Assembly: GCF_037914945.1 (NCBI RefSeq)
Contig: NZ_CP149787.1
Coordinates: 1,178,001 to 1,242,000, forward strand
Source of the DNA: Haloterrigena sp. KLK7
GTDB lineage: Archaea > Halobacteriota > Halobacteria > Halobacteriales > Natrialbaceae
Reading direction: 5' to 3'
DNA length: 64,000 bases
The first letter of the stretch is position 1. Every line of letters begins with the position of its first letter. Under the pieces are notes generated by a model. It saw only the letters and a list, made by a program, of their open reading frames with translations. It was not told the DNA's origin and searched no databases. The translations under genes and the position numbers were made by a program. Of the stretch, positions 1,168-58,567 are shown one piece after another.

Positions 1168-2406
1168 CTATGACGTCGCTTCCGGCGGTTCGTCCGTGTC
1201 CACCTCCGGCATCGTGTCATCCGCGTCCGAGGGCGACCCCTCGAGTTCGGCGGGCGTCCCGAAGACGTGGATCCTGTCGCCGGCCTCGAGCGGTTCCCTG
1301 TCGGCCGGCAGCGACACGATCTCGTCGCCGCGTTCGATCGCGAGCACGCGTCCCGGCACCCAGCCGGCGAACTCGTTCTCGAGCGGACCGCCTCCCTGGA
1401 CGGTCGTCACCGTCACTGTCTCGTCGCTGGTCCTGATCGCGGCGACGAGCGCGTGGCCGCCACTCGGCGTCTCCGGACGCGTCGTGAGGCGATACCGCTG
1501 GCCGGGTTCGAACGCCTCGGCGTCGTCCGCGTCGACGAGCAGCGTCGTGATCGGTCCCCTGCTCGCTCGCAGCGTCCCCGTCGCGACGTACCGTCGCGAA
1601 CCGGTCGCACTGGTCCAGACCTCGACCGGATCGCCGGTGCTCGCCCGCGCCGGCGGATCGGCGACGATCGCGACGGCGACCCGATCCGGCCCCAGCGCGG
1701 GGCTGATTCCGGGCCGTCGATCGCCGACCGCGACGGCCTCGACGGCACCGTCCTCGGCGAGTTCCGCGCGGACATAGCCGATGCCGAAGTCGGACTCGAG
1801 GCGCGTCTCGAGTCGGGACCGAAGGTCGGGGACCGACAGGTCGTTGGGGAACAGGAATCGCCGCCCCGCGAGGTCTCGCTTGAGACCCTTGTCGACGGAG
1901 GGGTACCCCTCGGCGTCGTCGATCGACTCGGGGAGGGTGATCGCGACGGCGAGTCCGGCCGAGCGGACGAGGTCAGTGGCCGGTCCGTCGGTCTCGAGTC
2001 TCGTCACGTCGTAGACGCCGCACGCGAGCCGGTCGCCGAGTCGATGGCCGCCGGCCGCAGCGATGAAGCCGGCGGTCAGTAGCCCGAGGAGGTAACTGGC
2101 AGACGTGTAGTGGATCAGCGGCGAGTCGACGACGACCTCGCCGTGGCGAATCGCCTCGAGGACGAGCCAGCCGGACGGGAGGGCGAGTCCGGCGAGGGCG
2201 GCCGCCCCGACCGGCAGTTTCCGAACGGTCGCTCCCCGATAGGCGAACGCGGCCGCGAGCGCGCCGACGCCCGCCAGCAGTCCGTACCCGAGGATGCCGA
2301 GCAGGGCCGTCCGCGTCCACTCGATCGACGTCGAACCGCCGAACGCGTCACCGCTCTGGAGGAGTTCAGCCGCGCCGATCGCCTCGAGCGGGATCACGAT
2401 CGTCAT
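1168..2406 (-). CDS. Membrane protein with C-terminal RCK_C (TrkA-C)-like domain, copy 2
   Basis: This 412-residue protein has an N-terminal membrane region (about four hydrophobic segments in the first 115 residues), a cytoplasmic middle region containing an EGYP motif, and a C-terminus that resembles a TrkA-C/RCK_C ligand-binding domain (around the residues PLENEFAGWVPG and GDRIHVFG). RCK_C domains bind small ligands and gate or regulate ion transport. There is no recognisable pore sequence, so a regulatory role is inferred rather than seen. Its ATG overlaps the stop of the upstream gene by one base (TGATG), which indicates translational coupling. I chose this start for that reason and because the membrane segment follows at once. 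The protein is a diverged paralogue of the upstream gene product. Confidence 0.75.
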   Translation of the reverse strand: MTIVIPLEAIGAAELLQSGDAFGGSTSIEWTRTALLGILGYGLLAGVGALAAAFAYRGATVRKLPVGAAALAGLALPSGWLVLEAIRHGEVVVDSPLIHYTSASYLLGLLTAGFIAAAGGHRLGDRLACGVYDVTRLETDGPATDLVRSAGLAVAITLPESIDDAEGYPSVDKGLKRDLAGRRFLFPNDLSVPDLRSRLETRLESDFGIGYVRAELAEDGAVEAVAVGDRRPGISPALGPDRVAVAIVADPPARASTGDPVEVWTSATGSRRYVATGTLRASRGPITTLLVDADDAEAFEPGQRYRLTTRPETPSGGHALVAAIRTSDETVTVTTVQGGGPLENEFAGWVPGRVLAIERGDEIVSLPADREPLEAGDRIHVFGTPAELEGSPSDADDTMPEVDTDEPPEATS

Positions 2407-3713
2407 CAGTAGCTCACCTCGATCGCTCGTCGGTCGCGGCCGTCCGAGTCCGATTTCGTCTCGAGGGCGTCCCCGTCGGTCCCGAGGAGGAACGCCTCCG
2501 TACCGACCGTGATCGCTGTCGGATCGGGGTCGAACTGCCACGGCCCCTCGCTCATCGTCGCGCCCGGACGGGCGGTCTCGTCACCGGTGTCGGCGGCGGC
2601 GTCGAGGCCCTCCCGACGGACCGCGAACGCCTCGAGGTCGACCGCGTCGCTGTCGATCGCCTCGAGTATCGGTTCGGTCAGCGTCACATTGCGGATCGCC
2701 GTCCCGTCGCGTTCGAGCAGCGAGACGGCGTCGAATTCGCGGGTGGTCTCGCCCGGTTCGACGACGATCCGCGCCCGATCGGCCTCGAGAAGCGTCTCCG
2801 CGTCCGTCGTCGGCACGGCGACCGTGACCCGGCCCTCACCGCCGCGGACCGCGGCCGCCGGCCGAGCCGTTCCGCCGGTATCGCTATCGTCGGCTGCAGG
2901 AGTCTCGGTCGCGTCCGGCGCGACGCGTCCACCGTCCGCGACGATATCGTCGCGGACGGTCGCGCTGAGGACGGTCCCGGCGACGGTCGTCGCCTCGGTC
3001 ACCGCGCGCACGTCGTCGCCCGGCGCGAGCCCCGTCGGGAGGAGCGCCCGGACCGACACGGCGCGCCAGCCGCTCGGAACCTGCTTCGCGATGCCGTTCG
3101 TCGGCGGCGCCGCAGTGATCGTCGCCCGCCCCCGCCCGTCGACGGCGACCGACACCGACTCGAGACCGTCGGTCGTCGCCAGTCGGTCCTCGAGGCGCCG
3201 TTCGAGTTCCGAGCGCGGTAGATCCGCCGGCAGTCGCCACGCGCCGTCCTCGAGGGCCGCCCGGAGCTCCGGATCGAGCGGCGGATACCCCTCGAACGCG
3301 CGGACGTCGCCGCTGGCGCGGACCGTCACCTGGCCCATCGCGTCGACCGCGTCGATCGCGTCGCCGGATAACGGCTGGCCGCGCTCGACGGGCAGCGACG
3401 TCTCGCGCGGGAGTTCGGTCGCGAGTCGCCAGCCGAGACGCCCCGCGTAGGCGGCGACCACCCCGACGACGAACAGCGCCGTCGCGATGCGGACCGCCTG
3501 CGCCGACAGGGGATCGACGTCGAAGACGCCGATCGCGTCGCCGATTCCCCCGGCCAGCGGGACCGCGATCAGGACCGACGCGAACCGCGGCAGTCGTCGC
3601 CGCCGGGCGTAGCCGAGGCCGATCGCGACCGCCGCGACGACGGCCGCCGTCGCGACGGCGATCAACAGGCCATACGAGACGCCGATCAGCGATTCGTACG
3701 CTACCGTATCCAT
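2406..3713 (-). CDS. Membrane protein with RCK_C-like domain, copy 1
   Basis: This 435-residue protein is the first gene of a coupled pair. Its architecture matches its neighbour: about three transmembrane segments in the first 95 residues, then a cytoplasmic part with the shared landmark EGYPPLDPELR. That landmark is followed by a helical stretch corresponding to the EGYPSVDKGLK region of the second protein, then beta-rich segments and a C-terminal TrkA-C-like fold. Both proteins probably act together as a hetero-oligomeric membrane complex. The family is known from haloarchaeal annotation as TrkA-C-domain proteins, and the transported or sensed solute is unknown. The C-terminal domain here is less typical than in the partner and carries an Asp/Thr-rich insertion around residues 270-290. 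Confidence 0.72.
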   Translation of the reverse strand: MDTVAYESLIGVSYGLLIAVATAAVVAAVAIGLGYARRRRLPRFASVLIAVPLAGGIGDAIGVFDVDPLSAQAVRIATALFVVGVVAAYAGRLGWRLATELPRETSLPVERGQPLSGDAIDAVDAMGQVTVRASGDVRAFEGYPPLDPELRAALEDGAWRLPADLPRSELERRLEDRLATTDGLESVSVAVDGRGRATITAAPPTNGIAKQVPSGWRAVSVRALLPTGLAPGDDVRAVTEATTVAGTVLSATVRDDIVADGGRVAPDATETPAADDSDTGGTARPAAAVRGGEGRVTVAVPTTDAETLLEADRARIVVEPGETTREFDAVSLLERDGTAIRNVTLTEPILEAIDSDAVDLEAFAVRREGLDAAADTGDETARPGATMSEGPWQFDPDPTAITVGTEAFLLGTDGDALETKSDSDGRDRRAIEVSY

Positions 3714-3927: not shown

Positions 3928-3972
3928 ACTATGGCAGAAAATTATAACTTCAACTATAAGGATATTATTCCC

Positions 3973-5073
3973 ATGAGCTTCGTAATTGGACGCGGCGACG
4001 ACTTGGCGGAGGGGCCCGCGGGCCACGTCGGTCGGTACCGGGCGCTCGACGGGAGCGAAGGCGCGGATCTCTTTCTCGATCTCGACGGTCCACACGCCAT
4101 GCTCGTCGTCGGCAAACGCGGATACGGAAAGTCGTTCACGATGGGGGTCATCGCGGAGGAACTCGCGCGGTCGGAGGGCGTCGCGCCCGTGATCGTCGAT
4201 CCGATGGGCGTCTTCGACACGTTGGCCGCCGACGCCGAGGGCGATCCGGTGCCCACCGAGGTCGTCGCCTCGCCGGCGGTCGAAGCGACGTCGCTCGATC
4301 CGCAGTCGTGGTGTGCGCTGTTGGATCTCTCGCCGGAGAGCGGCGCCGGGAGCCTCGTCTGGCAGGCGGCGACCGAATCGGAGACCATCGCCGCTATGCG
4401 CGACCACGTCGAGGCGACCGACGCGCCCGACGCGGACAAACGCGCCGCCGTCAACCACCTGAATCTCGCGGCGTCGTGGGACGTCTTCGATCCGGACGGC
4501 CTCTCCGCGACCGACCTCGGCGGCCCCGAGGTGACGATCGTCGACGTCTCCGGCCTCGAGGCTCGAGCCATGAACGCCGTCTGTCGCGGCGTCGGCGAGG
4601 CGCTCTACCGGGCTCGAGTCCGCGAGACGATCGATCGCCTGCCGTGGCTGCTGCTCGACGAGGCCCACACCTTCTTCGAGGGCGTGGCCGAGCCGGCTCT
4701 GCAGACGATTCTCACGCGCGGCCGCGCGCCGGGTGTCAGCCTCGTGACCGCGACCCAGCGACCCAGCGCCGTCCCGCCGGTGGGCATCTCCCAGTCGGAC
4801 GTGCTCGTCTCGCACCGGCTCACCTCGGCGGCCGACCTCGAGGCGCTCGAGAGCGCCCAGCCGACGTATATGAACGAGTCGCTGGACGATCGGATGCCAA
4901 CGGAACCCGGCGAAGTGGTCATCGTCGACGACGCCACGGAGACGATTCACGCCGCGCAGGTCCGGTGGCGGGACACGCCCCACGGCGGCGACAGTCCGCG
5001 CGCGAGCGACACGCGGCAGTACTCCGGCACCGGCGCGGAGACTGATACCGCTCCGACGGTCGGCACGGACTGA
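3973..5073 (+). CDS. HerA-like (DUF87-type) ATPase
   Basis: This 366-residue P-loop ATPase resembles the HerA/FtsK superfamily. Visible motifs are the N-terminal beta-barrel-like start (MSFVIGRGDDLAEG), Walker A GKRGYGKS at about residues 47-54, Walker B LLLDEAH near residue 222, and the ATQRPS sensor block near residue 260. HerA proteins pump or process DNA with NurA, or act in DNA translocation. No nurA gene lies beside this one, so a role in end resection is not supported by context. The protein is shorter than canonical HerA (about 500 residues). The next gene, about 140 bp downstream, encodes a coiled-coil acidic protein and has its own TATA box. The start was chosen from the promoter position. 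Confidence 0.8.
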   Translation: MSFVIGRGDDLAEGPAGHVGRYRALDGSEGADLFLDLDGPHAMLVVGKRGYGKSFTMGVIAEELARSEGVAPVIVDPMGVFDTLAADAEGDPVPTEVVASPAVEATSLDPQSWCALLDLSPESGAGSLVWQAATESETIAAMRDHVEATDAPDADKRAAVNHLNLAASWDVFDPDGLSATDLGGPEVTIVDVSGLEARAMNAVCRGVGEALYRARVRETIDRLPWLLLDEAHTFFEGVAEPALQTILTRGRAPGVSLVTATQRPSAVPPVGISQSDVLVSHRLTSAADLEALESAQPTYMNESLDDRMPTEPGEVVIVDDATETIHAAQVRWRDTPHGGDSPRASDTRQYSGTGAETDTAPTVGTD

Positions 5074-5216: not shown

Positions 5217-5987
5217 ATGGCCGATATCGACCGAATCGATCATCGTCTCGCCGCCGTCGAACGGGCCGTCATCGACGGCGACTACGAAGTCGATGAGCTG
5301 GGGGACCTGGCGGCGCTCACCGAGACCGTCGAGCGCCTCGAGGTACGGGTCGACGAACAGGAACGGCGGCTCGCGGCCCTCGAGGCGAAGACGGAGTCGC
5401 TGACCGGGTTCGTCGACACCGTCGAGTCGGTCAACGACGACGTCGAACGGCAGGCCGCGACGGCCGTCGCGACCGTCGACCGACTCGAGGATCGGATCGA
5501 CGAACTTGAATCGGCGCTTGAAGCGGTTCGGCCGGAAACCGCCGATGCCGGGGCGGGAGCCGGGCGGTCGAAAGCGTCGACTGACGGTGACTCCGATCTC
5601 GACGCCGAGAGACGGAACGCGGCGTCGGCCTCGACCGAAGTCACGTTCTCCGAACGGGAGACGGCAGCGAGCGACGACGGAGCGAGTACGCCGGAGCACA
5701 CGGTCTCGGAGATCGGCGGCAGTGGTGACGGTGACGCCGACAGCGATTTCGAATGGGGTGCCGAGGAGTCGGCCGCAGACGGGAGCGCCGCGGAGTCCCC
5801 GGCCAGCGGTCCCGGTGCGGCCGGGACCAACGCGGCCGAGCAGGAGTCCGTCGATCGATCGCTCGACGAGTCGGCGAGCGATCGATCCGAATCGGCAACC
5901 GATGAGACGGCGGCTGCGGATGCCGACGACGGGAAACCGCCCGACTCAGACGGGCTCCTCTCGTCGGTCCGCTCCAAACTACCGTGA
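5217..5987 (+). CDS. Acidic coiled-coil protein next to HerA-like ATPase
   Basis: This 256-residue hypothetical protein has two parts. Residues 1-105 form continuous heptad-patterned helix (for example VERLEVRVDEQERRLAALEA), which should dimerise as a coiled coil. The remainder is a long Asp/Glu/Ser/Ala-rich tail of low complexity, probably disordered. A conserved-looking short helix, DGLLSSVRSKLP, ends the protein. No catalytic motif is present. Because it follows the HerA-like ATPase on the same strand, it may be an adaptor or partner of that ATPase, which is inference. It overlaps the next, apparently broken, small gene by four bases. The ATG was chosen because it lies one TATA spacing below TTTAAAT. 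Confidence 0.7.
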   Translation: MADIDRIDHRLAAVERAVIDGDYEVDELGDLAALTETVERLEVRVDEQERRLAALEAKTESLTGFVDTVESVNDDVERQAATAVATVDRLEDRIDELESALEAVRPETADAGAGAGRSKASTDGDSDLDAERRNAASASTEVTFSERETAASDDGASTPEHTVSEIGGSGDGDADSDFEWGAEESAADGSAAESPASGPGAAGTNAAEQESVDRSLDESASDRSESATDETAAADADDGKPPDSDGLLSSVRSKLP

Positions 5988-24306: not shown

Positions 24307-25206
24307 ATGGTGGATGTTGACTCAGCTCCCGTCTGTCCCGAATGTGATGGGAGATTGCGGACCCGAGGTACCGAAACGATCTGTGAGGAGTGCGGTCTCG
24401 TCTCTTCCGAGGATGCGATCGATCGCGGCCCCGAATGGCGCTCGTTCGACGACGACGAGACCGATCGTCGGCGAACGGGAGCCCCGTTAACCCGCTCGCG
24501 GCACGATCGCGGCCTCTCGACGAAGATCGGCTACGGCTCCGGTTCGGGCGGGGAGTACAGCTCCCGGCTGACCGGACGGAAGCGACGCCAGATCGCCCGA
24601 CTGCGTCGCGAGCACAACCGAGCGCGGATCTCCTCGAAAGCCGACCGGAATCAGGTCTACGGCTTCACCGAGATACGCCGGATCAACACCCATCTCTCGC
24701 TGCCGGAATCGGCCAGAGAACAGGCGTGTGCGCTCTTCAATTCGGCCCAGTCCGAGGGGCTCCTTCAGGGCCGGTCGCTCGAGGGGTTCGCCGCCGCTGC
24801 GGTCTACGCGACCTGCCGAACGCGATCGAACGCCCGGACGATCGACGAGATTGTCGACGTCGCCCGCGCCGACGAAGACGAACTCACGGTCGCCTACGAC
24901 GCGCTCAATCGCGAACTCGGTCTCCCGACGGGGCCGATCGATCCGGCCCAGTACCTGCCGCGGTACGCCTCGAAACTCGACCTCGAGACGGCGATCGAGA
25001 ACCGAGCACGGGAGTACGTCGCCACGCTCCTCGACGAAGGACTGATCGGCGGCCGCAACCCGAGCGGGGTCGCCGCGGCGTGTCTCTACAAGGCCGCCGG
25101 CGAACGCACGGAGTGGCCGACGATCACGCAAGCCGACGCGGCCGCCGTCGCCGACGTCGCGCCAGTGACGATTCGCTCGACCGTGGTGGACCTCAGAGAA
25201 CTCTGA
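24307..25206 (+). CDS. tfb: Transcription initiation factor TFB (divergent paralogue)
   Basis: This 299-residue TFIIB-type factor recruits RNA polymerase to TBP-bound promoters. The zinc ribbon uses C10, C13, C26 and C29. The B-finger region follows (GPEWRSFDDDE), then two cyclin-like repeats (about 110-190 and 205-299). The recognition helix of the second repeat reads APVTIRSTVVDL. Haloarchaea carry several TFB paralogues tuned to different gene sets, and the weakly conserved linker and Arg-rich segment TGRKRRQIARLRREHNRAR suggest a specialised copy. It is separate from its neighbours and has a distinctive AT-rich promoter. Confidence 0.92.
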   Translation: MVDVDSAPVCPECDGRLRTRGTETICEECGLVSSEDAIDRGPEWRSFDDDETDRRRTGAPLTRSRHDRGLSTKIGYGSGSGGEYSSRLTGRKRRQIARLRREHNRARISSKADRNQVYGFTEIRRINTHLSLPESAREQACALFNSAQSEGLLQGRSLEGFAAAAVYATCRTRSNARTIDEIVDVARADEDELTVAYDALNRELGLPTGPIDPAQYLPRYASKLDLETAIENRAREYVATLLDEGLIGGRNPSGVAAACLYKAAGERTEWPTITQADAAAVADVAPVTIRSTVVDLREL

Positions 25207-25306
25207 GGCGCTGGTCGACGGCGTCGATGGAACGGTCTCGAGTCGAGAGAGCTCTACCGTCTCGAGAACAATTCGCTGAACGGACTTGCAGACGGAACGT
25301 TGACGA

Positions 25307-27949
25307 CTATGTCGTCCGCAGCGTGTCCGTACTCGGCTCGTAGACCTCGCCCTTCTGCTTGAGCTTCTCGATCTCGTGTTCGGCCTTGGACTGGTCCATA
25401 CCGACCTCCTCGGCCCGTTCCATGACGATGTCGACGGGCGCCCCCTCGTCGTACTCCTCCTCGATGTCGCTGATCAGCTGTTTCAGGTTCTTGATCCGGT
25501 CGCGCTGGGACTTCGAGGTGCCGGCCTCGACGATGTCCGCGTCGAACTCGCCGGTCTCCGGATCGACGCCGATGTCCTGGAGACACGAGCGAACGATCTC
25601 GATGACGCGGTTCGCGTCCGACTCCTCGACCGTATCCGAGAGGCGCACGCGGGCGCTGGCCTCCGAGAGGCGCACCAGCGCCTCGAGCTTTCGGGCCGTG
25701 ACGGGCACGGGGGCGTCCTCGTCGGTCCCCTTCGCGCGTAGATCCACGTAGAAGTCCCGGATCGCGTTCCGGGCCGCCTCGGTCATCCGCGGATGGCAGT
25801 TCTGCTTCGCGTAGGCGATGTACTTGCGCAGCAGTTCGGCGTCGATCTCCGGATCGACCTGATCGGTCATTTCGTCGATCTCTTCGCTCGAGACGTCCAG
25901 CGAGGTCATCTCCTCGCGCTGGGTGGTCAACTCGCCGGCGTAGTTCGTGGTGATGATGTGTTCCGCGAGGTTCTTGTCCTTCTCCTCGTCGGGCTGGTCC
26001 GTGACCGTGAAGATCAGGTCGAATCGAGAGATGAGCGCCGGCTCGAGGTCGATCTGCTCGCCGATCGGCTCGTACTGGTCGAACCGACCGTACTTGGGGT
26101 TGGCCGCGCCGAGGAGCGAACAGCGGGACTTGAGCGTGGCGTTGATGCCGGCCTTCGAGACGGAGATCTTCTGCTGCTCGAGGGCCTCGTGCATGGCGCT
26201 GCGGTCTTCCGCGCGCATCTTGTCGAGTTCGTCGATGGCTGCGATCCCCTGATCGGCGAGGACGAGCGCGCCGGCCTCGAGGGTCCACTGCTGGCCGTCG
26301 CCGAAGTCGTCGCGGACGGCGGCGGCGGTGAGTCCCGCCGAGGACGACCCCTTCCCGGAGGTGTAGACGGCCCGGGGGGCGATGTTCTGGATGTAGCTCA
26401 GCATCTGGGAGTTGTGCGAGATGACGCCGTTCGAGACGTAGTTGTGAGTTCCCTCGATCTCGAGGTCGTACACCCAGTCGTAGTCGGGTTCGAGTGTTTC
26501 GATCGAGACGATTTGATCCGTCTCAGGGGTACCGTGTGCAGCCGCGACTCCACCATCAGCCAGCACTTCTCTCGTGTCGATTTGGCCGACTGGATCCGGG
26601 GCCGTATCCATCGCAGCGACGGTGTCACCGACCGACAGTTCGTCGGCGCGGACTGCCCGAAAGCTGGACTCGTCAGGAACGAATAGCGGATGCGACGGCG
26701 TCACCTCGAGTTCCCGCCCGCTCGAGGTCTGCACGCGATACATCTGCTCGGGTGCTTCGCGTTTCCAGACTTTCGTCGCTCGCTGTGGAGCGATTGAACC
26801 GTCGTCCTGCAGGGACGGAACCTCGAGATCGATCTCATCGTAGCAGCCGTCATCGATCGGTTTCGGATCCTCGAGGTTCGATTCGACGAGATCACGAATT
26901 GGGACATCTCGTCCGTCTGCGAGCGTGACCTTTGTGTCTCCGTGGACGCATTTACCCGTACCAGGGTCCCCGATCAGTAGCATGTGCAGGTCCCCGCGGA
27001 TCCTCGAGCCGTCGGGAAGCTGCTTCGTCACGCCCGAGAACAGCTGGAGGATCATCGCGAGCTTCTCCTGGTCGTAGCCGTAGATCGAGGGAGCGATGGA
27101 GGCGACCATCTGCTCGTAGATGTCTGCGCTCGAGGAGAGCCGGACGATTTCCTCCTTGTCCTCGTCGGTGATGTCCATGTCCTCGAACTGCTCTTCGTCG
27201 ATGTCGACGGCCATCCCCTCCATGTAGAAGTCGAAGACGGGCGACTTCTCCTGCTGGTCGCCCTGTTGCTCGAGGCGGAGGACGCCGGTCGCGGAGACGT
27301 GGTCGCCGGGGGTCACTTCGCCGGTGATGTCGTCCTCGACGTGGACGTCCAGCGACTGTGGCGTCTCGCCGCCGCGCAGCCCTTCGGGGCTCTCCTGAAT
27401 GCGGAGCTTCTGGGAGTCGACGAACTCAGACTGATCGAAATTCACCTGAAACGGTCCCTGCCGCTCACAGCCCTGACACTCGTGGGGTTCCTGAAAGTCC
27501 CCGCTGGACTGGGGAATGCGGGTCAGGGTGCCACAGAGCTGACACTCGAAGGCGGCCTCCTCGATTTTGGGGCGAACGTCGGTCGCTTTCCGAACGATCC
27601 CGTGGACCTCGACGAGGGTGTTCATGTCCGGGGCGCGGATCTCCCGGATCTCAGGGGACTCGGTCTCCGGGAGGTTGTGGATCCGAACGTGGGCCTGCCC
27701 GAGACTGACGTCGATCGGAAGGTCGTACAACCGCAGCGCCTCCTCGGCGTAGCGCTGGAGCTGTTCGGGCTGGGCGAGGAAGTCGTCGGCGAGGTCGGGA
27801 TCGAAGCGGTAGAGATCCTGCCAGTCGATGTGAAGCGAACGCTGCTCGTTGGGATATCGCTGCGCAAGCTGCTTGATCTCGTTGTCGTAGTAGTTGCGGA
27901 AGAACTGCTCGAACGAGTCGACGAGTTCAGAATTGCCCGCTTGCGCCAT
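25307..27949 (-). CDS. mcm: Replicative helicase MCM with in-frame mini-intein
   Basis: This 880-codon precursor gives a 700-residue MCM after splicing. The N-terminal domain holds a zinc site (C136, C139, C158, C161). The AAA+ core has Walker A GDPGTGK-S, interrupted by the intein between Lys333 and Ser514, followed by Walker B AAIDELDK and the arginine finger in SRFDLIF. A C-terminal winged helix ends the protein. MCM is a hexameric 3'-5' helicase that opens DNA at replication forks. Since the P-loop is split, no activity is possible until the intein is removed. The ATG is preceded by an AT-rich promoter. It is monocistronic and convergent with tfb. Confidence 0.96.
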   Translation of the reverse strand: MAQAGNSELVDSFEQFFRNYYDNEIKQLAQRYPNEQRSLHIDWQDLYRFDPDLADDFLAQPEQLQRYAEEALRLYDLPIDVSLGQAHVRIHNLPETESPEIREIRAPDMNTLVEVHGIVRKATDVRPKIEEAAFECQLCGTLTRIPQSSGDFQEPHECQGCERQGPFQVNFDQSEFVDSQKLRIQESPEGLRGGETPQSLDVHVEDDITGEVTPGDHVSATGVLRLEQQGDQQEKSPVFDFYMEGMAVDIDEEQFEDMDITDEDKEEIVRLSSSADIYEQMVASIAPSIYGYDQEKLAMILQLFSGVTKQLPDGSRIRGDLHMLLIGDPGTGKCVHGDTKVTLADGRDVPIRDLVESNLEDPKPIDDGCYDEIDLEVPSLQDDGSIAPQRATKVWKREAPEQMYRVQTSSGRELEVTPSHPLFVPDESSFRAVRADELSVGDTVAAMDTAPDPVGQIDTREVLADGGVAAAHGTPETDQIVSIETLEPDYDWVYDLEIEGTHNYVSNGVISHNSQMLSYIQNIAPRAVYTSGKGSSSAGLTAAAVRDDFGDGQQWTLEAGALVLADQGIAAIDELDKMRAEDRSAMHEALEQQKISVSKAGINATLKSRCSLLGAANPKYGRFDQYEPIGEQIDLEPALISRFDLIFTVTDQPDEEKDKNLAEHIITTNYAGELTTQREEMTSLDVSSEEIDEMTDQVDPEIDAELLRKYIAYAKQNCHPRMTEAARNAIRDFYVDLRAKGTDEDAPVPVTARKLEALVRLSEASARVRLSDTVEESDANRVIEIVRSCLQDIGVDPETGEFDADIVEAGTSKSQRDRIKNLKQLISDIEEEYDEGAPVDIVMERAEEVGMDQSKAEHEIEKLKQKGEVYEPSTDTLRTT
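26411..26950 (-). other. Mini-intein (180 residues) inside the MCM P-loop
   Basis: The insertion begins with Cys334 (CVHGDTKVTL, block A), carries the block B motif TPSHPLFV, and ends with block F/G (VYDLEIEGTHNYVSNGVISHN in part), with Asn513 followed by extein Ser514. These are the residues required for protein splicing. Only a short linker lies between blocks B and F, with no LAGLIDADG or HNH sequence, so the homing endonuclease has been lost or was never present. Splicing competence is expected from the intact motifs. Confidence 0.93.
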
Positions 27950-32667: not shown

Positions 32668-33387
32668 TCAGTTCCCCAGGATCCGCGCGATGTCCTCGTC
32701 GGTCGCTTCGGTCGACGGCTCGGACGCGAAGTCGAATCCGCCGTCGGACTCGTCGCCGACACCGTCGTCGGTCTCGTCGGTCCACGCCGCCAGCAGATCG
32801 GCGACCTCTTCGTCGGTCGCCTCCGGCAGCGACTCCTCGCTGCCCTCCTCGGCGACGACCGCGTCGAAGATCTCCCCGAACGTCGAGACGACGCGATCCT
32901 CGTGGCGCGTCGGATCGAAGTGGAAGTGCGCGTACGCGTCGACGCTCGAGAGCCGATTGGTCAACACGTGCGCGAACTGGAAGACGTCCTTCGGCGGCGT
33001 CGATCGGAGCAGTGCGTCCAGCGAGTCGAAACAGACCGTGAGTTGCTCGTCGGACCAGTGCTTACAGAACCGACTGACGGCGACACCGATGGCGGAGAGA
33101 TCGGTCGGATCGCGAACCGTGTCGACGACGATCCGCTCGTCAAAGTCGCGGGCCGACTCGGCGGTGTCCTCGACCAGAACGTCACCGACCGTTAGGAGGC
33201 CGACTCTGCCCGTCACCGCGTTCGGATCCGGCCGATTCGGCCGATTGTCCGCGAACGAAACCCTGAGATCTGCCGTCGCGCCGGTATCGTGGCAGAGGTC
33301 GGGACAGACGGCTGGCTCGCACTGCGTCTCGTGAACGAGCAAGACGTTCGCCGGCGGATCGATCGCGGCTGGGGTTGCTGGCTCCAT
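32668..33387 (-). CDS. KaiC/RecA-like haloarchaeal protein without a P-loop
   Basis: This 239-residue protein belongs to a haloarchaeal group often labelled HTR-like or KaiC-like. The order of strands (NVLLVHETQ, RVGLLTVGD, ERIVVDTVRDPTDLS, LTVCFDSLDALL) follows a RecA fold, with VCFDSLDALL where a Walker B would be, but there is no Walker A motif, so ATP binding is doubtful. The last 80 residues are acidic and end with two similar repeats, ATDEEVADLLAAW and ATDEDIARILGN, which look like a duplicated short helix. A signalling or scaffold function is often proposed for the group without proof. Confidence 0.6.
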   Translation of the reverse strand: MEPATPAAIDPPANVLLVHETQCEPAVCPDLCHDTGATADLRVSFADNRPNRPDPNAVTGRVGLLTVGDVLVEDTAESARDFDERIVVDTVRDPTDLSAIGVAVSRFCKHWSDEQLTVCFDSLDALLRSTPPKDVFQFAHVLTNRLSSVDAYAHFHFDPTRHEDRVVSTFGEIFDAVVAEEGSEESLPEATDEEVADLLAAWTDETDDGVGDESDGGFDFASEPSTEATDEDIARILGN

Positions 33388-56085: not shown

Positions 56086-56451
56086 ATGGTCGAGGTGGAA
56101 GCGACGTGTGAGCGATGCGAGGACGTGACGCTGGTCCGAGTGACCGTCACGAACACTCGGTCGACGCCACAGACGGTTCGTCTGCGGAGTCGGCTCGAGG
56201 GACCGGTCTGGCCGCCGCGAGCGGGGTCGGTCGCGGCCCCCGAATGGGACGAAGACAGGTGGACGGGACGGGTCAAACCGGGCCGAACGCGCGGACTCGG
56301 GTTCGCCAGTCCGGCGCCGCCGCTCGAGTCGCCGGTCGAAATCGCCGAGGTGCGACGGGCCGACGGCGACGAACCGACCTCGTCGGAGACCGTCCTCGCC
56401 GATCTCGAGGAGTGGGCGCCGACGACGGACGTCCTCTCGCGGGGGCTATGA
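56086..56451 (+). CDS. Haloarchaeal hypothetical protein upstream of a MinD-like ATPase
   Basis: This 121-residue protein shows an N-terminal CERCED pair and then an immunoglobulin-like beta pattern (TLVRVTVTNTRSTPQTVRL, the strand pair SRLEGPVWPP and GRVKPGRTRG). The fold resembles CARDB-type domains often seen on secreted proteins, but there is no signal peptide. It overlaps the MinD-like gene by four bases and probably forms a pair with it. A TATA box (AATTTATAC near 56052-56060) gives a start at normal spacing. Its function is unknown; it may be a partner or cargo of the ATPase. Confidence 0.68.
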   Translation: MVEVEATCERCEDVTLVRVTVTNTRSTPQTVRLRSRLEGPVWPPRAGSVAAPEWDEDRWTGRVKPGRTRGLGFASPAPPLESPVEIAEVRRADGDEPTSSETVLADLEEWAPTTDVLSRGL

Positions 56452-57146
56452 TCGTCGCGGTAACCGGCGGCAAGGGAGGGGTGGGGAAGTCGACGACGTC
56501 GCTCAACCTCGGGTACGAACTCGACGCGGTCGTCGTCGACGGCGCCCTCGCGACGGCCGATCTCCCGTCCGGAACCGGCCCCGACCTCCACGACGTCCTC
56601 GCCGGCCGCGCCGACCCGGTCGCGGCCGTCGAACGGTTCGGGCCGGTTCGCTACCTCTCCTGCGGACGGACCCTGGCCGGCGCCCGGGCAGCGGATCTCT
56701 CCGCGCTCGGCCGCGTCGTCGAACGGCTCGAGCGTGAGTACGGCCGGGTCGTCATCGACTGTCCCGCCGGCCTCGCGAGGGACGTCGGCGCGCAACTCGA
56801 GACGGCTCATCTCGCCGTTCTCGTCACGACGCCCGACGAAGCCGCGCTCGTCGACGCCGTCCGGACGCGACGGGTCGCGGCCGACCTCGAGACGCCGATC
56901 GCGTCGGTCGTCCTCAACCGGGCCGACCGCGACGAACGCGACGGACTCGCGAGTCGCGTCGAGGAGACGTTCGGCGCGACGACCGCGATCGTCGAAGATC
57001 GAGCGGCGATCGACGACGCCCAGTCGCAGTGGCTGCCCGTCGACGCAGTCGACTCGGACTGTCCGGCGGTCGGCGCGTTCGACGAGATCGCCCGGACCGT
57101 CGAGCGCTCCGAAGAACGCATCTCGAGCCGTATCGGCGTTCTGTGA
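56448..57146 (+). CDS. MinD/ParA-type ATPase
   Basis: This 232-residue deviant Walker A ATPase has the motif KGGVGKST with the signature lysine K9, Walker A' VVIDCPAG near residue 102 and the C-terminal NRAD nucleotide base contact. MinD and ParA proteins form nucleotide-dependent dimers that position other structures along membrane or DNA. The protein is shorter than canonical MinD, mainly in the region after the P-loop. It is coupled to the upstream hypothetical gene and runs head-on into a second MinD-type gene, with 77 bp between stops. Confidence 0.86.
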   Translation: MIVAVTGGKGGVGKSTTSLNLGYELDAVVVDGALATADLPSGTGPDLHDVLAGRADPVAAVERFGPVRYLSCGRTLAGARAADLSALGRVVERLEREYGRVVIDCPAGLARDVGAQLETAHLAVLVTTPDEAALVDAVRTRRVAADLETPIASVVLNRADRDERDGLASRVEETFGATTAIVEDRAAIDDAQSQWLPVDAVDSDCPAVGAFDEIARTVERSEERISSRIGVL

Positions 57147-57223
57147 TCGGTCGACGGTCACGTCGATAGCGCGATACCGCTACCGAGACGAGATCGAGAC
57201 AGAGACTGCTACTACTGGGAGCG

Positions 57224-58567
57224 TTACTCGTCCGACGGACCCTCGCCGGTGACGCCGGGAGCGGAACCGGCCTCCAGTTCCCCGTCGGCCGGCACCGTAA
57301 TCGCGTTCGGCGCCCCGTCGAAGCGCAGTTCGATCGTCTCCGAGAAGCCGCAGTCGGCGCGGTGTTTCGGGACCGAGAGGTAGTGTTCGACGTCCGCTCC
57401 GGAGGCGGGCGAGACGGTCTCGAGTTCGAGCACGACGTCCGCGAAGTGGGTCGTGATCTCGCGGTTCTCCGGTGGTCGCCGCGTCGGACAGTGGAGGACG
57501 GCGACCCCATCGGTTTCGACCATCTTGTCCGTGAGATCGTTCATGAATTCGACGTAGGCCTCCCTGTCGCGGCGCTCGAGCGCGTTCGCGGTGTCGACGA
57601 GCAGGTTCGCGCCGTCGGGAAGCTTGTCGAGGATCTCCCGGAACCGCTCGAACGGCTCCGCACTCTCGCCGCCGATCCGGCGAACCGTCGGGGTACCGGT
57701 CTCGAGCGTCGAGGCCTCGATCGCGCGGTCGACGTTCCGTTCGGAGCGACGCGTCGTGACGTAGAGCGAGCCGCGGACGGCCGTCGTCTGATAGAGGAGC
57801 TGTTCGCTCTGACTCGCCGGATCGGCCGTCAGTGCGACGACGGTGCCGGGCGGGACGCCGCCGCCGAGTCGGCGGTCGAGCGCGTCGATACCGGTCCCCA
57901 GCAGTTCGTCGGCGTACGCCGGCGGCGTCCGGGCCGTCGCGTTCTTCGTCTGGAGCGTGCGCACGATTTCGTCGTAGACCGCCCGGGACTCGTCGGCTGC
58001 CAGCGGTTCGTCGACCTCGGGAACGACGCCCAGTACGGGGACGTCGACCCACGACCGGACCGCGTCGGGGACGTCGGTCGTCCGAGTGACGACGGCACCG
58101 AGCACCGGCACGCCGAGCCGGGTCGCCATCTCGACGGTCGTTTCGGCGGCCTCCAGACTTCGGTCGTCCGCGGTCGTGACCACGATCGCCGCGTCGGCGG
58201 CCGAGAGTGGATCGACGACATCGGGACCCGCGCCCGACGGACAGTCGATCAGCAGCTGCACCGAGTCCAGCGACAGTCGCTCGAGCGACGTCTCCATGTC
58301 GAGTTGGTCGGCGGATTTCGGCGCCGGGAGCAGCCCGACGTTCGACGATCGCGGATCCTTCTGGGCGACCTGCAGGACGTCGTCTTCTCCGCGGACCGCC
58401 GCGAGCGTGGGTTCGCGGTCGATCCCGCTCCTGACGTGGAGATTCGGAAGCTGTCGGTCGGCGTCGGCCGCGAGCGCTGGCGTTCCGGCACGACCGAACG
58501 CCTCGGCGAGCGCCAGCGTCGTCGTCGTCTTGCCACAGCCGCCTTTCGCACCGGCGATAGCGATCAT
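57224..58567 (-). CDS. MinD/ParA ATPase fused to a RecA/KaiC-like domain
   Basis: This 447-residue two-domain protein is distinct from its neighbour. Residues 1-210 are a MinD/ParA ATPase with KGGCGKTT (signature K8), D36 in AADADRQLPNL and Walker A' LLIDCPSGAG near 106. From about residue 222 a KaiC/RecA-like domain begins with GTGIDALDRRLGGGVPPG, but its P-loop has decayed to ADPASQSEQ, while LLVDTANALERRDR keeps a Walker B-like strand. The fusion suggests a positioning ATPase that carries a second, non-catalytic RecA-fold platform. The start at MIAIAGAKGG matches the domain edge. Confidence 0.84.
   Translation of the reverse strand: MIAIAGAKGGCGKTTTTLALAEAFGRAGTPALAADADRQLPNLHVRSGIDREPTLAAVRGEDDVLQVAQKDPRSSNVGLLPAPKSADQLDMETSLERLSLDSVQLLIDCPSGAGPDVVDPLSAADAAIVVTTADDRSLEAAETTVEMATRLGVPVLGAVVTRTTDVPDAVRSWVDVPVLGVVPEVDEPLAADESRAVYDEIVRTLQTKNATARTPPAYADELLGTGIDALDRRLGGGVPPGTVVALTADPASQSEQLLYQTTAVRGSLYVTTRRSERNVDRAIEASTLETGTPTVRRIGGESAEPFERFREILDKLPDGANLLVDTANALERRDREAYVEFMNDLTDKMVETDGVAVLHCPTRRPPENREITTHFADVVLELETVSPASGADVEHYLSVPKHRADCGFSETIELRFDGAPNAITVPADGELEAGSAPGVTGEGPSDE

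Follow-up and report, generated by a model that had tools for sequence, protein, structure and literature searches.

The present locus raises the question of which cellular structure is served by two MinD-type ATPases that are encoded side by side in Haloterrigena sp. KLK7, one coupled to a small beta-rich protein and the other fused to a second domain. In the present study, the whole stretch of 64,000 nucleotides that holds the three genes (hereafter, the window) was analysed and its genes were compared with those of 194 haloarchaeal genomes, which are unevenly sampled. We propose, with a probability of about 0.6, that a haloarchaeal type IV pilus (T4P)-like machine has its cytoplasmic MinD module in this cassette, which most likely is dedicated to the positioning or the assembly of this pilus. 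The features of the window are collected in Table 1.

Table 1. Features of the window that bear on the MinD cassette and on the T4P locus
Feature	Position	Strand	Basis
Two membrane proteins with TrkA_C-like tails	1168-2406, 2406-3713	-	Weak TrkA_C match and gene clusters
HerA/DUF87-like ATPase of the T4P locus	3931-5073	+	Pfam DUF87; 76% identity to the HerA-like gene next to the T4P operons of relatives
DUF7310 coiled-coil protein of the T4P locus	5217-5987	+	Pfam PF23991, E 5e-27
Vacated ancestral MinD1 site	24307-27949	TFB 24307-25206 +, MCM 25307-27949 -	Gene calls and tblastn
DUF7857 protein, short form, 121 aa, beta-sandwich	56086-56451	+	Pfam PF25256, E 9e-25
MinD/ParA ATPase, MinD1-type, 232 aa	56448-57146	+	minD_arch match and tree
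MinD ATPase fused to KaiC-fold DUF7125, 447 aa	57224-58567	-	Pfam and fold
Degenerate P-loop of DUF7125, ADPASQSE, residues 248-255	57803-57826	-	Motif conservation

All three open reading frames of the first-pass annotation were found in place, and its description of a beta-rich product coupled to a MinD ATPase held good. The TGA of the DUF7857 gene overlaps the ATG of the following MinD gene as ATGA, and the same overlap recurs in most DUF7857-MinD pairs of other haloarchaea, which indicates that the coupling is selected and did not arise by chance. The face-to-face arrangement that had also been described is not general, as in several genomes the cassette genes share a strand and two membrane-protein genes lie between them; convergent order was rejected as a conserved feature because other gene orders occur. 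The DUF7857 protein was modelled by AlphaFold2 as an all-beta sandwich of six long strands (pLDDT 85.6). Since its PDB relatives were only common beta-sandwich arrangements, with the best score (Z 8.0) to a designed protein, no function was read from these matches, and a literature search by family name found no papers on DUF7125, DUF7857 or DUF7504. We consider DUF7857 a candidate partner or adaptor of the MinD ATPase.

The ATPase encoded behind DUF7857 has an intact deviant Walker A motif, GKGGVGKST (KGGVGKS with the signature lysine), and the pattern KGGxGK[ST] is kept in nearly all relatives of both MinD ATPases of the cassette. In its DxD switch the second Asp is replaced by Ala (VVDGAL) in this genome only; the sister genome has VVDGDL, and DGD or DAD stands at this position in the relatives. 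Loss of the catalytic Asp was thus rejected as a trait of the lineage, and hydrolysis by the MinD1-type protein of the window may be impaired in this strain because the usual catalytic Asp is missing. The NCBIfam model minD_arch (TIGR01969) gave 110.4 bits for this protein and 80.6 bits for the MinD domain of the fusion; since both scores are below the curated cut-off of 201.75, the two ATPases are regarded as members of the superfamily and are not filed under that model. MinD2 of Haloferax volcanii (HVO_0595) is also paired with a small conserved protein, HVO_0596. Assignment of the present gene to MinD2 of that pair was rejected, because HVO_0596 lies downstream of minD2 and DUF7857 lies upstream of its MinD gene, and both the tree and the synteny lead to MinD1.

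In the fusion protein, residues 1 to about 209 form a MinD domain with the Walker A motif AKGGCGKTT (KGGCGKT), an intact DxD switch (DADR) and a CbiA/ParA match in Pfam over residues 1-170, and residues 223-416 belong to the Pfam family DUF7125 (PF23442, E 4e-50). The structure model of the whole protein has two domains (pLDDT 82, pTM 0.56). By VIA-align, residues 1-209 matched MinD 1g3q (Z 26.5, 2.5 A over 206) and residues from about 212 to 419 matched KaiC (Z 20.8-21.8; for 8dba_B, Z 21.8 and 2.8 A over 200). Hence, the earlier description of a convergent MinD-RecA fusion with a degenerate P-loop is confirmed, ADPASQSE standing where GxPGxGKT/S is expected. The pattern A-x-P-A-S-Q-S-E is common to nearly all fused and stand-alone DUF7125 proteins, with E255 invariant and S252 and Q253 near-invariant. 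Because the Walker A P-loop is replaced across the family, we would not file DUF7125 as an active KaiC, and the fused KaiC-like domain is probably non-hydrolysing.

Both halves of the cassette have older counterparts elsewhere. The usual haloarchaeal order is mcm, DUF7854, (DUF7504), DUF7855, DUF7856, DUF7857 in a long form, MinD, TFB and DUF7858, and the long form of DUF7857 has about 280-310 aa in Haloferax in contrast to 121 aa in the cassette. In H. volcanii mcm is HVO_0220 (PMC3972481) and HVO_0225 is the MinD1 of the literature (PMC11621097); since mcm is HVO_0220, counting genes along the order read in close Haloferax species would place the mcm-linked MinD on HVO_0225. By tree and synteny, the MinD gene behind DUF7857 in the window groups with this mcm-linked MinD, which is likewise paired with DUF7857, whereas it lies away from mcm and beside the fusion. 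At the vacated site of the window, tblastn with the proteins of the Haloferax minD1 cluster matched TFB and none of DUF7854-DUF7857 or MinD1. A stand-alone DUF7504 protein (RecA-like family, E 6e-31) is encoded at 32668-33387 of the window, and a DUF7504 gene is found inside the mcm-minD1 cluster of other haloarchaea.

The counterpart of the fusion is an adjacent pair of separate MinD and DUF7125 genes, located in the vicinity of an FKBP-isomerase gene, together with pyrB or other genes. A search with the fusion protein reads through exactly one stop at this pair, which is the unfused ancestor of the fusion and which, by exclusion and from the numbers of neighbouring genes, is probably MinD3 (HVO_1634) of H. 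volcanii and its neighbour. In a tree of 135 MinD domains, the fused MinD domains form one clade (100/99) among the MinD3-type proteins, so that fused MinD and DUF7125 domains are nested with those of separate adjacent genes. The MinDs that accompany a short DUF7857 group beside the mcm-linked ones with a support of only 83/69, and one further member (G001) falls on the mcm-linked side. The basal members of the fusion group and of the short-DUF7857 MinD group are the same genomes (G057, G087 and G137), in which MinD1 has kept its place at mcm-tfb and the fusion that at the old MinD3 (pyrB/FKBP) site; this indicates that the fusion came first, in place, and that the modules were joined later. 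In genomes with the old order the two MinD ATPase genes are about 1-2 Mb apart. Thus, the two genes come from separate ancestral loci and were brought together, often beside a T4P operon, and the cassette represents two older haloarchaeal modules in a relocated and partly fused form.

The evidence for a pilus comes from the distribution of these genes. In the relatives, the T4P genes around the cassette encode the DUF7310 coiled coil, DUF7311, a T2SSE ATPase, TadC, DUF7283, a HerA-like ATPase and DUF7382, and in several genomes the fusion immediately follows TadC or DUF7283. DUF7857-MinD1 is co-inherited with one family of T4P ATPases across haloarchaea. Among the 194 genomes, 142 have both DUF7857 and the T4P secretion ATPase, 45 have neither, four have DUF7857 alone and three the ATPase alone (phi 0.904; Fisher p 1e-35, a value not corrected for phylogeny); ATPase matches near E 1e-31 in G192 and G002 were counted as other families. 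Five of these seven discordant genomes count against the proposal: G121 and G184, with DUF7857 and without the ATPase, and G100, G129 and G190, with the ATPase and without a detected DUF7857. A second T4P gene, DUF7311, gave nearly the same picture (both in 143, neither in 44 of the 194). Furthermore, double-positive and double-negative genomes occur together in ten genera and no genus shows the reverse pattern, which serves as a coarse sign test. DUF7310 was left out as a presence marker owing to weak coiled-coil matches in 185 genomes. A search of genome contigs for the Haloferax T4P ATPase gave 14 loci, none of them in H. volcanii, in which DUF7857 and DUF7311 were matched.

The MinD-DUF7125 fusion is co-inherited with one sub-clade of the same ATPase. 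It is found in 33 of the 194 genomes, always with the DUF7857-MinD pair and with one clade of the T4P ATPase, and its presence agrees with that of the matching ATPase clade in 194/194 genomes (present in 33, absent in 161); the matching sub-clade was defined as 62-100% identity to the query and 750 bits or more, and the fusion of G161, one of the 33, was confirmed by Pfam. This sub-clade has a support of 100/100, and G137 is its basal member, in agreement with the MinD trees. The possibility that the B clade of the T4P ATPase is mixed was rejected, the two "A" rows inside it being truncated B copies from G116 and the source genome (G000). The suggestion of the first-pass annotation that a dedicated MinD system attends a surface structure gains support from this co-inheritance. 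In contrast to the fusion, which is one polypeptide and always occurs with the T4P, the unfused MinD3-DUF7125 pair also occurs in genomes without this T4P (G056 and G067), and DUF7125 is present in 187 of the 194 genomes; the MinD3-DUF7125 half was therefore not T4P-specific before the fusion.

The cassette also decays where the T4P is gone, as seen in three relatives. In G192, of the same genus, the site between the genes for GAPDH and an aminopeptidase retains only residues 45-121 of DUF7857, 1-22 of MinD and 1-35 of the fusion. In G064, DUF7125 is not detectable, and what is left is the MinD half of the fusion and, behind it, a part of MinD1. G045 has DUF7857, a fragment of DUF7125 and a MinD1 that lacks residues 1-13. 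The T4P ATPase and DUF7311 were searched for in these three genomes and neither was found in any. The remnant of G192 (L214 4563-4927) has the form of a whole-cassette deletion scar that runs from the P-loop region of one MinD gene to that of the other.

In the source genome the T4P locus is split. The membrane pair, the HerA-like ATPase and DUF7310 are on the chromosome, and the DUF7311-T2SSE-TadC genes, which directly follow DUF7310 in relatives, are on the plasmid-like contig C4 (L198 6436-10703); in several genomes, homologues of the TrkA_C-tailed pair separate the fusion from DUF7857. Contig C4 has 211,846 bp and holds the T4P block (L198 6436-11305) in a plasmid backbone with ParA, a helicase and an AAA ATPase. 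The sister genome G181 has a homologous block on contig C5, annotated as secretion ATPase and secretion system protein. As the block is absent at the same place of the corresponding plasmid of H. salifodinae (L234 and L235), it was either transferred to the plasmid in one piece or has disappeared from that of H. salifodinae. In this genome, the motor genes have moved to another contig and the MinD module has stayed on the chromosome.

The traits described for T4P subclade 4F are a Cys-rich N-terminus of the ATPase, a unique coiled-coil protein and an FtsZ-family neighbour (Makarova 2016, PMC4858521). The T4P considered here resembles this subclade in the N-terminal Cys of its ATPase (e.g. CTCHHEF), in the DUF7310 coiled coil and in CetZ beside the A-type operons, and differs from the published description in its dedicated MinD module, which is not described there, although a FleN/MinD ATPase is expected for T4P in general. 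The cargo had been called unknown in the first-pass annotation; it now has a strong candidate in a type IV pilus that resembles subclade 4F. In several families, a divergently oriented CetZ tubulin gene is found next to the T4P operon. Its loci are L199 10721-11803, identified by Pfam, and L203 6250-7329, L204 5021-6121, L208 3001-4080 and L217 10429-11517, identified by their GVGQAGGK start.

With regard to mechanism, the MinD1-type ATPase would bind ATP, dimerise and mark or limit the sites at which the pilus motor is built, with DUF7857 as its adaptor or activator. The second MinD would dock on the T4P motor through its inactive KaiC-like domain, as the KaiC-like ArlH does on the archaellum ATPase ArlI. 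The likeness is to the ArlH-ArlI-ArlJ motor, in which a KaiC-fold protein stands beside a T2SSE-type ATPase and a TadC-like membrane protein; unlike ArlH, DUF7125 has no P-loop and is fused to MinD, and it matches ArlH only at E 0.13. A relay of the two MinDs may be pictured, in which MinD1 and its beta-sandwich partner set the site and the MinD with the dead KaiC domain clamps the pilus ATPase, possibly with the CetZ tubulin that is encoded beside the ancestral pilus operon, so that the cytoskeleton, both MinDs and the pilus would make up one spatial system; this we put forward as a tentative possibility.

The co-occurrence data fit positioning and regulation alike, and the main rival is that the MinDs control the amount or the timing of the same pilus and not its place, as a FleN-like anti-activator or switch acting on the ATPase or on transcription. 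MinD-like FleN regulates the expression of flagellar genes, which offers a precedent. In addition, FleN/MinD and KaiC ATPases were predicted to be T4P regulators (Makarova 2016, PMC4858521), and MinD1 in many genomes, as well as the fusion in some, has a TFB gene as its neighbour. We nevertheless hold such control to be unlikely, since DUF7857 has no match to a DNA-binding family and is modelled as a beta-sandwich, and since MinD2 and MinD4 of H. volcanii affect the positions of surface machinery (PMC11588486, PMC11621097). These two proteins (MinD4 being HVO_0322) resemble the cassette products as ParA/MinD ATPases linked to surface structures, and with two of the four H. volcanii MinDs of the same superfamily acting on archaella and chemotaxis arrays, the cassette might be thought to serve the archaellum or chemosensory arrays in a similar manner. 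However, their known effects are on archaella, chemotaxis arrays and CetZ1, whereas the cassette does not track the archaellum: against ArlH, phi was 0.168 for DUF7857 and -0.02 for the fusion, and ArlH is absent from 7 of the 33 cassette genomes. On this control the archaellum was rejected as the cargo. Moreover, deletion of all four minD genes of H. volcanii adds nothing to the swimming defect of the minD2/minD4 mutant, no effect on FtsZ placement was found, and the function of MinD1 and MinD3 is undescribed (PMC11621097). A role in archaella or arrays is accordingly very improbable.

It is very unlikely that the genes merely hitch-hike, in that they and the T4P lie in one mobile or unstable region and are lost together without joint work. 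The fusion is indeed within 15 kb of the T4P ATPase in 23 of the 33 genomes, but all three also co-occur in the other ten, in which the ATPase lies at a distance of at least 86 kb or on a different contig; most non-f1 genomes, too, have DUF7857-MinD at mcm-tfb, away from the T4P, yet tracking it. The first-pass annotation had held that its proposal would fail if the genes occurred independently of each other in related genomes, and what was found is co-occurrence even where they are not neighbours.

Overall, a MinD module for a type IV pilus names a specific, little-studied pilus as the candidate cargo of the MinD1 lineage and DUF7857 as its putative small partner. The fusion and the relocation physically join two ATPases that are otherwise far apart in the genome. 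The question of what the extra MinD proteins of archaea do is now open to simple genetics in a laboratory strain.
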